Shown: piece by piece, positions 12,319-45,096 of the stretch
How positions within the stretch are numbered: position 1 is the first letter of the stretch
Layout: each line of letters opens with the position of its first letter
Assembly: GCA_028714315.1 (NCBI GenBank)
Contig: JAQTMN010000003.1
Span: 1-64,000 of the forward strand
DNA length: 64,000 bases
Direction: 5' to 3'
Origin: Sulfuricella sp.
GTDB taxonomy: Bacteria > Pseudomonadota > Gammaproteobacteria > Burkholderiales > Sulfuricellaceae
Translations under genes and position numbers: made by a program
Notes under the pieces: model-generated
The model's database searches: none
What the model was told of the DNA's origin: nothing
Seen by the model: only the letters and a program-made list of their open reading frames with translations

Positions 12319-12368
12319 CTGTGGGTCAGGCTTTAGCCTGACTGTACGGCTGAAGCCGTACCCACAGC
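12319..12368. repeat. Double-hairpin repeat P1 (GTGGGTCAGGCT..AGCCTGACTGTACGGCT..AGCCGTACCCACA)
   Basis: Outer stem CTGTGGGT/ACCCACAG enclosing TCAGGCT-TT-AGCCTGA and GTACGGCT-GA-AGCCGTAC. Confidence 0.85.
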
Positions 12369-13298: not shown

Positions 13299-13692
13299 TG
13301 GTCGCGAAAAGGCACAAAAAGCACAAAAAGGTTTCTCCCTTCTCCCGCAGGCGGGATAACCATCGACTTGGCTGGCGTAGTAGTTTGCCAGCCTAGTCGA
13401 ATGGCTAGTAGTTCCATCAGAAGGGCCGGGGATGAGGGTGTTTGCGTCTTTGCAGGCATTAACCAAGCGCAAAGTCCCTCACCCCAACCCCTCTCCCTGC
13501 ACCCGCACGGAGTGGCAGCAAGCTGCACTCCGACTTTCTATCGACTAAAGTCGATGAAAGATCGTATGTCCCCGCCGGGTTCCCGCTGCTGCGCAGCGAC
13601 CACGGCGAGACGGGCGAGGGGCTATCGCGGGGTGTTCGAGTTTGGTCAGGGCAGGCTTTTTTTTTGTGTTTTTTGTGCCTTTTCGCGGCCAA
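13299..13692. repeat. Composite nested palindromic repeat cluster A
   Basis: Outer arms GTCGCGAAAAGGCACAAAAAGCACAAAAAG / CTTTTTTTTTGTGTTTTTTGTGCCTTTTCGCGGCC enclose host hairpins that are themselves interrupted at 13356..13418 and 13501..13612. Confidence 0.8.
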
Positions 13693-27204: not shown

Positions 27205-27253
27205 TGTAGGTCGGGCTTTAGCCTGACATGTACGGCTAAAGCCGCACCCACAA
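27205..27253. repeat. Double-hairpin repeat P1, diverged copy
   Basis: GTAGGTCGGGCTTTAGCCTGACATGTACGGCTAAAGCCGCACCCAC. Confidence 0.75.
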
Positions 27254-32066: not shown

Positions 32067-32417
32067 TTAGCCGCGAAAAGGCACAAAATTCGCAAAAAGA
32101 AAACAGCCGCTCTTTTTTTGTAACGGCTCAGGTTGGTTTTCTTCCTTCTCCCGCATACGACTCCACGCGGGCTTCAGTCCGCAGTGGATCGGAGTCCTTT
32201 AGGGCAGGCGGGATAACCATCGACTTGGCTGGCGTAGTTTGCCAGCCTAGTCGAATGGCTAGTAGTTCCATCAGAAGGGCCGGGGATGAGGGTGTTTGCG
32301 TCACTGCAAACGTTGACTCTGTGCAAAGTCCCTCTCCCCAACCCCTCTCCCGCCTGCGGGCGAGGGGCTTTAAGCCGTTGGCTCTTTTTGTGGCTTTTGT
32401 GCCTTTTTGCGGCCAAG
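32067..32417. repeat. Composite nested palindromic repeat cluster B
   Basis: Outer arms AGCCGCGAAAAGGCACAAAA / TTTTGTGCCTTTTTGCGGC enclose host hairpins interrupted at 32155..32205 and 32213..32272. Confidence 0.85.
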
Positions 32418-34827: not shown

Positions 34828-34980
34828 GGAGTGAGGAGCCTCCCGACTTTTTGCTCCTCACTCCTCACTAACGCTCATGGCGAATCGCCACCCCCGAATC
34901 ATGAAACGGCGTCCGTTGTGAGTACGCCACAGATCGCGCATCCTGTTTCGCGAGTTTCACGCTAATACTTTGGAGATTCA

Positions 34981-39212: not shown

Positions 39213-39262
39213 TTGTGGGTCAGGCTTCAGCCTGACTGTACGGCTTAAGCCGTACCCCACAA
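39213..39262. repeat. Double-hairpin repeat P1, uninterrupted copy
   Basis: TTGTGGGTCAGGCTTCAGCCTGACTGTACGGCTTAAGCCGTACCCCACAA. Confidence 0.85.
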
Positions 39263-40213: not shown

Positions 40214-40221
40214 CGGCTGGT

Positions 40222-40312
40222 GAAACCGCAAAGGCGCGAAGGTGCAAAGAATATATTTTGTTTTAAATGGTTTTTTCTTTGCGATTCCTTGGCGTCTTTG
40301 CGCCTTTGCGGT
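40222..40312. repeat. Inverted repeat ACCGCAAAGGCGCGAAGGTGCAAAG ... CTTTGCGCCTTTGCGGT
   Basis: Complementary arms between actA and actB. Confidence 0.85.
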
Positions 40313-40345
40313 GGATGTTCCGGTTTTTTTATAAAAGGCCCCATC

Positions 40346-43276
40346 ATGCCCCACGCACCGCTCGATCCGCCGTTCGACCGCCGGAATTTTCTGAAGCTGA
40401 TGGCGGCTTCGCTGGCGCTGGCCGGGGTCGGCGCCTGCTCCCGCCGGGTGCCGGAAGAGATCCTGCCCTACGTGTACGCGCCGCCGCCGTTGACGCCGGC
40501 GCAGCCCCTTTACTTCGCGACCGCGGCGAACTTGTGCGGCTCCGCGATGGGCTTGCTGGTCCAGAGCAACATGGGGCGGCCGACCAAGATCGAAGGCAAT
40601 CCGTCCCATCCGGCGAGCCTGGGCGCCACCGATATTTTCGCGCAGGCGGCAGTGCTGGAAGTGTGGGATCCCGACCGCTCGCAGGCCGTCATGCGCGACG
40701 GCCAGGCCAGCACCTGGGACGCCTTCCTGGCGACGCTGAGCGGTATCGACGGCAAGGGTTCGGGGCTGCGTATCCTCACCGAGGCCGTCACCTCGCCGAC
40801 GCTGATAGAGCAGATGCGGGCGCTGCTGCGCCGCTATCCGGCGGCGCGCTGGCATCAATACCAGCCGATCAACCCGGATCAGGCCTACGTGGGCAGCGTT
40901 CTCGCGTTCGGCGAAGCGCTGGAAACCGCCTGCCGGTTCGACCGCAGCCGCGTGGTGCTGAGCCTGGACGCGGATTTCATCGGCCACGGCGTGCGCCATG
41001 CCCGCGACTTCGCGGCTGCCCGGCGCGGCGTGGACGGCGAGCCCGATCCGGGCCGTCTGTACGTGGTCGAAGCCACGCCGACGCTGACCGGGGCGATGGC
41101 CGATCACCGGCTTGCCGTGCGGCCGTCGGAGGTCGAGGCGGTCGCGCGCGGGATCGCCCGCGCGCTGGGCTTGCCGGTCGCGGAATCCCATGCGGCGGCG
41201 CTTTCCGCGCAATGGATCGCCGCCTGCGCGGACGACCTCCGGCAAAACGGCCGCCGCTCGCTGGTGGTGGCCGGCGCGGCGCAGCCGCCGTTCGTCCATG
41301 CCCTGGCCCACGCCATCAATCACGCGCTCGGCGGCGTCGGCTCCACGGTTTCATACCATGCGCCGCTGTTCCCGGACGCGACGCGGCAGACCGATTCGCT
41401 GCGCGAACTGGCGGCGGAGATGGCGGCGGGCGCGGTCGAAACGCTGGTCATCCTCGGCGGCAACCCGGTCTACAACGCGCCGGCCGATTCCGGCTTCGCC
41501 GAACATCTGGCGAAAGTCGCGGCGTCGGTTCATCTGAGCCTTTACCAGGACGAAACCTCGGCGCGCTGCCGCTGGCACATCCCGGCGGCGCATTTCCTGG
41601 AAAGCTGGTCGGACACGCGCGCTTTCGACGGCACGGTGTCGCTGCAGCAGCCGCTGATGGCGCCGCTGTATGACGGCAAGTCGGCGCACCAGTTGCTGGC
41701 CGCCCTGCTCGGCGAAAATACGGCGAGCGACTACGGGGTGGTGCGGGATTATTGGCGCAAGCGCCATCCCTCCCTCTCCCCTAACCCTCTCCCGCAAGCG
41801 GGCGAGGGGGACGAGGTCTCGCTTCGCGAGGTTCGTGCTAATGCCGATTTCGATGCCTTCTGGAACGGCGCGCTGCGCACCGGTGTGATCGATGGCACGC
41901 GTTTGCCTGGCCGGAAAGCCGTGCTGAAAACCGGTTTCCTGGTGACGCCGCCGCGAACGGGCGGCGAAGGGATCGAACTTGTTTTCGCGCCGGACCCGAC
42001 GATCTGGGACGGGCGCTTTGCCAACAATGCCTGGCTGCAGGAATTGCCTAAGCCGCTGACCAAGCTCACCTGGGACAACGCCGCGCTGATCGGGCCGGTG
42101 CTCGCCGCCCGTCTCGGGCTCGACAATGGGGACGTCGTCGAACTCGGTTATCGCGGCGTCCGCCTTGCTGCGCCGGTCTGGATCATGCCCGGCCATGCCG
42201 ACGGCGCGGCAACGATCACCCTCGGCTACGGCCGCCGCCGCGCCGGGAGCGTCGGCAACGGCGCCGGCTTCAACGCCTACTTGCTGCGCCGGTCGGACGA
42301 GCCGTGGGGCGGGGGCGGGCTGGAAATCCGCAAGACCGGCGGCCGCCATCCGCTGGCAGTGACCCAGCACCATCATGTGATGGAGGGGCGCCGCCCGGTG
42401 CGGGCCATCACGCTCACCCGGTTCCGGCTCGACCCGGCCGCGGCTGTGACCGTCCCCCTCTCCCCTAACCCTCTCCCGCAAGCGGGCGAGGGGGACGAGG
42501 TCTCGCTTCGCGAGGTCCACGCTAATGCCAGCCTGTACTCGGCGGCCAAGTCGGAGGGGCACGCCTGGGCGATGAGCATCGACCTCGGCGCCTGCACCGG
42601 TTGCAGCGCCTGCACCATCGCCTGCCAGGCCGAGAACAACATCCCGGTGGTCGGCAAGACCGAGGTGGCGCGCGGCCGGGAAATGCACTGGATCCGCGTG
42701 GACCGCTATTACCAGGGCGATCCGGACCATCCGCGCACGCACTTCCAGCCGGTGCCGTGCATGCATTGCGAGCATGCGCCGTGCGAGGTCGTGTGCCCGG
42801 TCGAGGCCACGCTGCACGATTCCGACGGGCTGAATTTACAGGTTTACAACCGCTGCGTCGGCACGCGCTTCTGCTCGAACAACTGCCCGTACAAGGTGCG
42901 CCGTTTCAACTTTCTCCAGTATGCCGACACGGAAACCGAAAGCCTCAAGGCGCAGCGCAACCCCGAGGTCACCGTGCGCATGCGCGGCGTGATGGAAAAG
43001 TGTACCTACTGCATCCAGCGCATCGCCGGCGCGCGCATCGAAGCCGAAAAGTCCGGCCGGGGCATCCAGGACGGGGATGTCGTCACCGCCTGCCAGGCGG
43101 CATGCCCGACCGGCGCGATCGTCTTCGGCGATCTCAACGACCCGGACAGCCGCGTCGCGCGGGCCAAGCGCTCGCCGCTGAACTATGCGCTGCTGGCCGA
43201 GTTGAACACCCGGCCGCGCACCACTTACCTGGCCAAGGTGGGCAACCCGAATCCGAAGCTGGGATTTGAATTCTAA
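40346..43276 (+). CDS. actB: Alternative complex III subunit B (molybdopterin-oxidoreductase-like + FeS domains)
   Basis: TAT-like DRRNFLKLMAASLALAGVGAC; CTGCSACTIACQAENN, CMHCEHAPCEVVCP, CSNNCPYKVRRF. Confidence 0.92.
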   Translation: MPHAPLDPPFDRRNFLKLMAASLALAGVGACSRRVPEEILPYVYAPPPLTPAQPLYFATAANLCGSAMGLLVQSNMGRPTKIEGNPSHPASLGATDIFAQAAVLEVWDPDRSQAVMRDGQASTWDAFLATLSGIDGKGSGLRILTEAVTSPTLIEQMRALLRRYPAARWHQYQPINPDQAYVGSVLAFGEALETACRFDRSRVVLSLDADFIGHGVRHARDFAAARRGVDGEPDPGRLYVVEATPTLTGAMADHRLAVRPSEVEAVARGIARALGLPVAESHAAALSAQWIAACADDLRQNGRRSLVVAGAAQPPFVHALAHAINHALGGVGSTVSYHAPLFPDATRQTDSLRELAAEMAAGAVETLVILGGNPVYNAPADSGFAEHLAKVAASVHLSLYQDETSARCRWHIPAAHFLESWSDTRAFDGTVSLQQPLMAPLYDGKSAHQLLAALLGENTASDYGVVRDYWRKRHPSLSPNPLPQAGEGDEVSLREVRANADFDAFWNGALRTGVIDGTRLPGRKAVLKTGFLVTPPRTGGEGIELVFAPDPTIWDGRFANNAWLQELPKPLTKLTWDNAALIGPVLAARLGLDNGDVVELGYRGVRLAAPVWIMPGHADGAATITLGYGRRRAGSVGNGAGFNAYLLRRSDEPWGGGGLEIRKTGGRHPLAVTQHHHVMEGRRPVRAITLTRFRLDPAAAVTVPLSPNPLPQAGEGDEVSLREVHANASLYSAAKSEGHAWAMSIDLGACTGCSACTIACQAENNIPVVGKTEVARGREMHWIRVDRYYQGDPDHPRTHFQPVPCMHCEHAPCEVVCPVEATLHDSDGLNLQVYNRCVGTRFCSNNCPYKVRRFNFLQYADTETESLKAQRNPEVTVRMRGVMEKCTYCIQRIAGARIEAEKSGRGIQDGDVVTACQAACPTGAIVFGDLNDPDSRVARAKRSPLNYALLAELNTRPRTTYLAKVGNPNPKLGFEF
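41772..41845. repeat. In-frame 74-bp palindromic repeat in actB, copy 1
   Basis: CCCTCTCCCCTAACCCTCTCCCGCAAGCGGGCGAGGGGGACGAGGTCTCGCTTCGCGAGGTTCGTGCTAATGCC. Confidence 0.93.
42456..42529. repeat. In-frame 74-bp palindromic repeat in actB, copy 2
   Basis: 71/74 identical to 41772..41845, same reading frame. Confidence 0.93.
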
Positions 43277-43309
43277 ACTTGTAACGACACGGGGGGCGGG
43301 CGGTTTTCT

Positions 43310-43472
43310 CCCTTCTCCCGCATACGACTCCACATGGGCTTCAGCCCATAGTGGATCGGAGTCCTTTAGGGCAGGCGGGAGAAGGGCCGGGGATGAGGGT
43401 GTTTGCATCCCAGAAGCGTCGCCAAAGCGTGCACAGTCCCTCACCCCTGCCCCTCTCCCGCCTGCGGGAGAG
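43310..43472. repeat. Host repeat with 51-bp hairpin insert at 43322..43372
   Basis: CTTCTCCCGC[ATACGACTCCACATGGGCTTCAGCCCATAGTGGATCGGAGTCCTTTAGGGC]AGGCGGGAGAAGGGCC. Confidence 0.88.
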
Positions 43473-43535
43473 GGGTTTATGCCGCATGCATGAATGGCTA
43501 CTCTAGTAGTCAGTCAAGATGAAACAGCGGGGTCG

Positions 43536-43662
43536 CTGTTGTGGGTACGGCTCTTGTGCCCTTTAGGGCGCAGCCGTACATGTCAGGCTGCACCCGCAAG
43601 GAGTGTCCCCGCCGCGAGCGGCAGCAGAGCTGCTCGCACGGGCGAGAAAGCCTGACCCACAG
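43536..43662. repeat. P1 double-hairpin with both loops expanded by extra hairpin elements
   Basis: GTACGGCT[CTTGTGCCCTTTAGGGCGC]AGCCGTAC and GTCAGGCT[GCACCCGCAAGG...GGGCGAGA]AAGCCTGAC. Confidence 0.87.
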
Positions 43663-43728
43663 ATCACCGCGAATCAAACTGAGTGACTACTTAGGTTTTG
43701 AATTTGAAGTTCAAAATTCAAGGATGAC

Positions 43729-45096
43729 ATGGCTCCCACAGAACTCCCCACCTCCGCGCCAGACCCGGTTTTCCCGGGCGCCCACTCCTACGCGTCGATC
43801 TCGGACAAGATCGGCGACATCGTGCTCAAAGGCCCGTCTGGCTGGTGGTGGCACGCCGCGTTCGCGCTGAGTTCGGCGCTGACGCTGCTCTTTTTCGGTT
43901 CCATCGGCTACCTGTTTTACAAGGGCGTCGGCATCTGGGGCCTGAACGTGCCGGTCGTCTGGGCATTCGACATCACCAACTACGTGTGGTGGATCGCCAT
44001 CGCCATGTCGGGGACTTTCATCTCGGCGGCCCTTCACCTCACGCGCCAGGACTGGGGCGCTTCGATCAGCCGGTTCGCGGAGGCGATGACCGTCTTCGCC
44101 CTGGCCATCGCCGGCCTATTCCCGATCATTCACCTTGGCCGCCCCTGGTTTTTCTACTGGCTGGCGCCCTATCCGGACGCGATGGGCCTCTGGCCGCAAT
44201 GGTGCAGCCCGCTGGTATGGGATTTTTTCGCCATTCTGGCCTATCTGCTGCTGTCGCTGATGTTCTGGTACCAGGGCCTGCTGCCCGACCTGGCGACGCT
44301 GCGCGACCGTGCGGCCGGACGCTTCGGGCGCTTTGTCTATGGCGTTCTCGCCCTCGGCTGGCGGGGCGAGGCGCGCCACTGGGAGCGCCGCCGCAGCGCG
44401 CATCTGCTCCTCGCCGGGCTGGCGGTGCCGCTGGTCGTCTCCGTCCACAGCGTGGTGGGGCTGGACTTCGCCGCCGGCAACACGCCGGGCTGGCATTCCA
44501 CCATCTTCCCGCCGTTTTTCGTCGCCGGCGCGATGTTCTCCGGCTTCGCCATGGCGATGACGATCGCCGTGCCGCTGCGCCGCGCTTTCGGCCTGCACGA
44601 TTTCATCACCGGCCGCCACCTCGACCGCCTGGCGCAACTGATCTTGGCGATGGGTCTGATTCTCGCCTACAGTTACTTGATGGAGGTGTTCATGGCCTGG
44701 TACAGCGCCGATCGATACGAGGTGTACACCGCGTTGAACCGGATGCGCGGGCCCTATGCGCCGGTCTACTGGACCCTGATTTTCTGCGTCGTCGCGGTGC
44801 CGCAGGCACTGTGGTTCGCCCGCGTGCGCCGCTCGCCCTGGACGCTGTTTTGCATCGGTATCGTGATCAATATCGGCATGTGGCTGGAGCGGTTCATGCT
44901 GATCGTCACCAGTACGCATCGCGATTTCCTGCCTTCCGCCTGGGGCATGTTCTACCCGACGGTCTGGGACTGGGCCATCCTGGCCGGCTCGCTCGGGTTT
45001 TTCGCTTGGCTGTTCCTGTTGTTCGTCCGGTTCGTGCCGCTCATCCCGATGAGCGAAATGCGCGGGCTCGCGCACCGTCAAGGCGGCGCGCCATGA
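43729..45096 (+). CDS. actC: Alternative complex III subunit C (NrfD-like quinol-binding membrane protein)
   Basis: 454-455 aa polytopic; NrfD/PsrC-type; ATGA overlap with actD. Confidence 0.9.
   Translation: MAPTELPTSAPDPVFPGAHSYASISDKIGDIVLKGPSGWWWHAAFALSSALTLLFFGSIGYLFYKGVGIWGLNVPVVWAFDITNYVWWIAIAMSGTFISAALHLTRQDWGASISRFAEAMTVFALAIAGLFPIIHLGRPWFFYWLAPYPDAMGLWPQWCSPLVWDFFAILAYLLLSLMFWYQGLLPDLATLRDRAAGRFGRFVYGVLALGWRGEARHWERRRSAHLLLAGLAVPLVVSVHSVVGLDFAAGNTPGWHSTIFPPFFVAGAMFSGFAMAMTIAVPLRRAFGLHDFITGRHLDRLAQLILAMGLILAYSYLMEVFMAWYSADRYEVYTALNRMRGPYAPVYWTLIFCVVAVPQALWFARVRRSPWTLFCIGIVINIGMWLERFMLIVTSTHRDFLPSAWGMFYPTVWDWAILAGSLGFFAWLFLLFVRFVPLIPMSEMRGLAHRQGGAP

Follow-up and report, generated by a model that had tools for sequence, protein, structure and literature searches.

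REPINs and BIMEs, which together with a cognate RAYT make up a REPtron, consist of REPs paired in an inverted doublet with a tag adjacent to the stem; they reach a high copy number, and the RAYT gene is flanked by its own REPs. How REPs and REPINs spread and change is still an open question according to the available part of PMC8266576. The same source reports that single-stranded REP is cleaved by TnpAREP at C|T, that cuts beside the REP fall at CT or CA, and that a GTGG tag shifted cutting to CC in one system. In GTAG-family REPs with long self-complementary loops, the accessible text of PMC3733652 describes loop variants, some of them self-complementary, that coexist in one species, and GTGG tags occur among them. 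The REP palindrome is also the target of IS1397/ISKpn1/ISPa11-type insertion (PMC1525189, as far as available), and small mobile hairpins are known as mitochondrial double-hairpin elements, GC clusters and sponge RHE. The repeat described here, P1, is very probably a REPIN with exchangeable loop cassettes.

Results

The window analyzed is a stretch of 64,000 nucleotides (positions 1 to 64,000 of contig JAQTMN010000003.1, assembly GCA_028714315.1) from Sulfuricella sp.; its genome, G000, is a 2.92-Mb assembly of 148 contigs that is 85% complete. G, C and L numbers denote genomes, contigs and loci, and window features lie on the forward strand unless stated. By its arms and fold, the segment at 43540–43661 is a REPIN-like P1 REP doublet with both loops loaded, the first with cassette A and the second with cassette B. 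A GTGG tag (43541–43544) stands ahead of the first REP hairpin (43545–43579; 8-bp arms GTACGGCT/AGCCGTAC), the two bases AT (43580–43581) join it to the second REP hairpin (43582–43656; 8-bp arms GTCAGGCT/AGCCTGAC), and CCAC (43657–43660), the inverted tag, follows on the 3' side. Both pairs of arms (43545–43552/43572–43579 and 43582–43589/43649–43656) are exact inverted repeats, and a short outer stem, TGTGG/CCACA, surrounds both hairpins. Cassette A (43553–43571) places 19 nt between the arms, 17 nt beyond the 2-nt loop, and is itself a small hairpin; cassette B (43590–43648) places 59 nt between them. The 127-nt strand folds at −39.9 kcal/mol, compared with a shuffle mean of −24.9 kcal/mol (z −4.98; none of 200 shuffles equaled it). 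The sequence-only reading had described a double-hairpin repeat with both loops expanded, and the exact arms, the 19- and 59-nt inserts and the folding score bear this out. The expansions are not special to this copy: A and B recur in the genome and stand together in 17 of 134 aligned P1 copies. In the genome, cassette A has 62 matches at three or fewer mismatches (2 for the reversed-pattern control), and the B tail has 47 (control, 0).

This copy lies in a 452-nt gap between an ORF at 40220–43276 and another at 43729–45096; next to it stand a P3 loaded with C and a P2-like palindrome. An outer inverted repeat, whose left arm (43505–43516) is 92% complementary to the right arm (43680–43691), surrounds it as a possible MITE-like outer frame. 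The two ORFs that bound the repeat cluster (40220–45096) are both large and, with their translations read by eye, resemble successive respiratory-complex subunits. None of the 23 Rfam matches (E ≤ 1) in 43200–43900 reached the gathering score, and nearly all were to eukaryotic miRNA models. In the GTDB species set, which may omit records very close to this genome, the A hairpin was matched exactly in just one MAG, Sulfuricella sp. nzgw577, on three of its contigs.

Each half of P1 consists of GTGG, an 8-bp palindrome and a 2-nt loop, and the two halves are inverted and 1–2 nt apart; P1 is thus a palindromic REP with a GTAG-like tag, of the GTGG variant. The linker pattern, which marks linker-intact doublets, has 109 matches in the genome (47 + 62; control, 0), giving at least 109 P1 copies, and occurs in 6 of the 22 genomes of the family, including its own, with no more than 10 matches in any other genome. 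These 109 doublets and the long-hairpin fold described below correspond to two inverted REPs that together form one hairpin. The short conserved loop of a REP is missing from 74 of the 134 aligned copies, including that in the window, each of which has at least one loaded loop.

Three short-loop copies lie in the window, at 12320–12366, at 27205–27252 and, on the reverse strand, at 39214–39259. The uninterrupted copies placed by the sequence-only reading at 12319 and 39213 are therefore real, within about one base, and the copy at 27205 is additional to its list. That reading took uninterrupted P1 to be an outer stem enclosing two hairpins with 2-nt loops; the 2-nt loops are there, but the single strand slightly prefers one long hairpin (−18.6 kcal/mol) to two hairpins (−16.1 kcal/mol), and the long hairpin has both loops paired within its stem.

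A cognate RAYT lies beside P1 copies on contig C6. The gene (G000:C6:46455–46901) is an intact 149-amino acid ORF that scores 158 bits against NF047646 (cut-off 80) and is above the cut-off for PF01797, a family with 7 loci in this genome. P1s with short loops flank it on both sides, and all three complete adjoining copies are short-looped. RAYT homologues in four other genomes (L175, L176, L178 and L182) are likewise flanked by GTGG- or GTAG-type hairpins with 2-nt loops and 8-bp arms (10 bp in one case); of the nine homologue loci scanned, tagged hairpins were not found beside five (L177, L179, L180, L181 and L183). The C6 gene with its flanking short-loop P1s, together with the homologues beside similar hairpins, argues that P1 is a REPIN of the C6 RAYT. 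As a side observation, the four homologues share 53–59% identity with the C6 protein, and their tagged hairpins differ while following one design; these pairs are useful for the study of RAYT/REP co-evolution.

Because short loops also accompany the RAYT homologues of four other genomes, the short P1 loop is probably ancestral. The opposite order, in which the long form came first and short loops arose by deletion of palindrome centers, has in its favor that such centers are known deletion spots and that a C12 copy of B resembles a deletion between short repeats. It sits poorly with the 2-nt loops around the C6 RAYT and its four homologues, and with the presence of B in unrelated hosts. We consider this order highly improbable, and an origin of the short loops by deletion only was judged unlikely.

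Loop content was scored in 134 P1 copies from fetched loci, which are fewer than the genome holds. Both cassettes were present in 17, A only in 33, B only in 24 and neither in 60 (A total 50, B total 41), frequencies that are biased because A, B and linker patterns were used for retrieval. The presence of A in a copy is independent of that of B (Fisher p = 0.56, odds ratio 1.29). With linker A as with linker AT, all four states were found, and they recur in flank group F1 (10 none, 8 A, 8 AB, 7 B) and in flank group F2 (4 none, 1 A, 1 AB, 3 B). By the four-gamete argument, their presence in all of these contexts means that clonal copying of single insertions is insufficient and that recombination or repeated insertion is needed.

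Polarity, in the forward reading, is fixed: A adjoins the 5' arm in 50 of 50 copies and B the 3' arm in 41 of 41, so that both cassettes are oriented alike with respect to the host REP's tag. The same cassettes recur with constant boundaries in many P1 copies and in both REP types. A resides mostly in AC-type hairpins, with a CA-type minority of at least 4 of 50, and the A copies seen in the relative G010 are of the CA type; B occurs in an AC-type hairpin at C4:57898 and at two G010 loci. In the most frequent form of empty loop the two bases are G and A; B separates them as a clean insertion of 57 nt, with nothing lost.

Half-hairpin stutters were noted at C60:15417, C53:14205, C4:57848, C106:1585 and C84:4185, in which P1 begins, stops at a hairpin tip or close to one, and is directly followed by a full P1, or short half-units stand in tandem. 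At window position 34921 a P1 flank frame is present, but only a few bases stand where P1 would be, so that a copy may have collapsed or been excised there.

When the 134 copies were aligned end to end and insertions of at least 5 nt were scored, 95 of 99 sat at the two P1 loops (45 and 50). Three of the four others were in one tandem copy (C4:11693), and the fourth was cassette A beside a mutated arm (C2:6977). The check proposed in the sequence-only reading, a comparison of insert positions with loops, thus comes out in favor of loops; however, the copies are amplified families and do not represent independent insertion events.

Cassettes also occur in palindromes other than P1. The tip of P2 (CTCTCCC..GGGAGAG) contains B, complete with its inner tip, at C1:1028, C27 and C36, at L172 of relatives and, less cleanly, at L173. 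The joined pattern of P2 arm and B head was matched 20 times in G000, 21 times in G010, and 5, 3 and 4 times in G009, G004 and G015; beyond the family, G055 has 11 matches and G099 has one. The pattern spans two bacterial families and 11 of the 200 genomes searched, four of these with one weak match each. B tails of the P2 side, ending in GAGAC, are common throughout the three genera, whereas the exact GAGAA tail of the P1 side is found mainly in genus g1 and has a single exact match in g3, in G021. This distribution, together with B in P2 of several genomes, suggests that B probably resided in P2 before P1. A P2 dimer of 57–141 nt in turn occupies the inner tip of B in several copies and in two orientations. 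A P3 palindrome (CTTCTCCCGC..GCGGGAGAAG) carries cassette C (51 nt; 43323–43373, 170 nt ahead of P1) in its tip, and C occupies P3 tips also at 32156, C28:19165 and C59:5726.

Two modules are off-tip. I1 (53–54 nt, 12 matches) enters B at a constant point between its two hairpins; the window example (13514–13566) is in a B-like cassette that is itself inside a P2 palindrome (CCTCTCCC arm at 13490). I3, of about 60 nt with a strong hairpin (z −7.7), is always found in P2- or P3-type palindromes, directly behind a GGGA of the 3' arm. Its seven places are 13357 (13357–13420, in P3), 32214 (32214–32274, in a P3 that also has C in its tip) and 62589 in the window, and C10:12490, C10:14560, C65:1461 and C66:10301. 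I3 looks like a tiny site-specific element with base-precise insertion. An eighth match, C59:6815, was dismissed as unrelated coding-like sequence.

A module-level test was performed with one row per module-host combination, insertion points that we set from the alignments, a tip defined as within 2 nt, and a null of uniform placement, which ignores the poor amplification of stem-broken insertions. Six of nine combinations were at tips (P = 0.0028 by simulation, 0.0026 exact). Since C in P2 was seen only with half-arms or an imperfect right arm, the test is also given without that weak row (5 of 8, P = 0.011); with each module counted once, 4 of 6 were at tips (P = 0.027). P1 in the tip of a P4 hairpin (C12:13207 versus C57:9411) was left out of the count, P1 actually being in the linker between two P4 hairpins, as were 44- and 75-nt cases (e.g. 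C5:40418, C46:8879), which contained flank copies or were single examples. Two initial scans scored 40 candidates each; 20 extra stretches, mostly away from the listed P1 matches, held few P1 copies, and no claim is based on their being random.

Empty and filled sites were also compared in 18760 pairs, of which 2218 were dropped as tandem-like. The pair G000:C20:35666 (L144) and C56:5547 is clean and reveals a 140-nt element with inverted ends (GGATTGTCCATTAGCC..) and P1 in its middle. G000:C16:21215 and C16:21382 (L045) apparently represent the empty and filled states of a site for a unit that carries P1; its ends resemble CTAGTAGTCAG and match the outer inverted repeat around the window P1.

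Discussion

The sequence-only reading proposed tip-directed insertion. The concentration of 95 of 99 insertions at loops, and B, C and the P2 dimer in tips, speak for it; the amplified families, the off-tip I1 and I3 and a filter against stem breakage speak against it. Tip-biased insertion is supported but not proven, and a filter for stem-preserving insertions together with recombination between copies explains much. Insertions may have fallen anywhere, with only those in loops keeping the arms intact and amplifying, so that no tip-directed enzyme is needed; gene conversion, template switching or homologous recombination between copies would then have spread the loop states. We regard this as a real possibility, although a less than even one. 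The free assortment of A, B, linker and flank fits it, as do the off-tip I1 and I3, the stutters adjoining full copies at C60, C53, C4, C84 and C106, and two arm-hybrid hairpins in G000, with similar ones in L131 and L168. Homologous exchange, however, does not explain how B moved between the unrelated arms of P1 and P2, and A in CA-type hairpins would need exchange within 4-bp arms. Apart from one tandem copy, the 134 copies contain no singleton non-tip insertion, in a retrieval that favored intact copies.

We propose that the P1 hairpin loops serve as docking positions for the small hairpin cassettes A and B. A and B would first have entered single-stranded DNA in a few founding insertions, at unpaired hairpin tips and most likely through an HUH single-strand transposase such as RAYT; loaded P1s would then have been amplified as whole units, and their loop states reshuffled among copies through strand exchange at shared arms. 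Since loop states are shuffled among copies, the window copy may have acquired A and B other than by two insertions of its own, and it would be one product of amplification and reshuffling rather than the site of two fresh insertions. For the founding entry of the cassettes, we consider the chances of tip-directed insertion to be evenly balanced. The favored single-strand fold of empty P1, which buries the loops in a stem, weighs against it, as does the small number of independent events (module-level p from 0.0026 to 0.027, depending on the counting scheme). The rarity of arm-hybrid hairpins (2 of 151 short-loop hairpins) also counts against the proposal as a whole.

RAYT is the preferred candidate for the enzyme of the founding insertions, albeit a doubtful one. 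An intact RAYT flanked by P1, the fixed polarity and the clean insertion of B point toward an HUH enzyme. At the junctions of A and B, inspected by eye, simple C|T joins do not account for both sides, as the right-hand junctions do not fit. The available part of PMC8266576 states that loop bases are important for RAYT action in group-3 REPs, and loaded REPs are therefore expected to be poorer RAYT substrates; despite this, AB-loaded P1 copies were amplified. The short loops of all three complete P1s beside the C6 gene likewise count against this scheme.

Alternatively, A, B and C may be tiny non-autonomous elements of an ordinary (DDE) transposase that favors REP loops, as in the case of IS1397 and palindromic units. 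REPs are known IS targets (PMC1525189, in the part available), and cassette C is perhaps flanked by a 3-nt direct repeat, TGC, when read by eye. B, however, entered without target duplication, as a clean 57-nt insertion, no common terminal inverted repeats were noticed among A, B and C, and cassette polarity is fixed. We judge this explanation very unlikely. In the tip-directed reading with a RAYT or related HUH enzyme, that enzyme would cut unpaired palindrome tips in single-stranded DNA and join small hairpins to them with fixed polarity, and repeat families would grow inward and trade tips. This general scheme is speculative, and we think it rather unlikely as a whole; if true, hairpin-tip-to-hairpin-tip single-strand transposition would be a mode without description in the available parts of PMC3733652, PMC8266576, PMC1525189, PMC3116915, PMC2800124 and PMC4478555.

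The genome offers a natural series, in which the same REP doublet is empty, loaded with A, with B or with both, or has B expanded further, at many loci and in several species. Next to it lies an intact RAYT, and relatives of this RAYT adjoin other short-loop REPs; two questions thereby become testable, namely whether RAYT cuts and rejoins at hairpin tips and whether a loaded loop is mobile. These data raise the possibility that tiny mobile DNA pieces dock at hairpin tips.

To our knowledge, no RAYT is known from the organelle genomes that bear double-hairpin elements, GC clusters or RHE. Those elements differ from P1 in belonging to organelle genomes, and tip nesting is without description there in the portions of the sources available; merging and shuffling of palindromic clusters is reported for yeast GC42 (PMC4478555, in part). 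Our literature search found no hairpin cassettes exchanging between REP loops and nothing on repetitive palindromic sequences of Sulfuricella. IS1397, ISKpn1 and ISPa11 are kilobase insertion sequences with a transposase (PMC1525189, available part), whereas the P1 cassettes are gene-free and of 19–60 nt; the window copy has no transposase-coding insert, its inserts being 19 and 59 nt. The GTAG-family REPs, as described in the accessible text of PMC3733652, have small loops that pair over up to 6–7 bp, whereas the P1 cassettes are separate modules that also occur in other hairpin families and are nested several levels deep. Compared with the REPIN/BIME of a REPtron, P1 has the tag GTGG, a linker of 1–2 nt and loops with interchangeable cassettes of 17 to ∼250 nt. 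A REPIN with its RAYT is a known arrangement; the exchangeable, nested loop cassettes are new.
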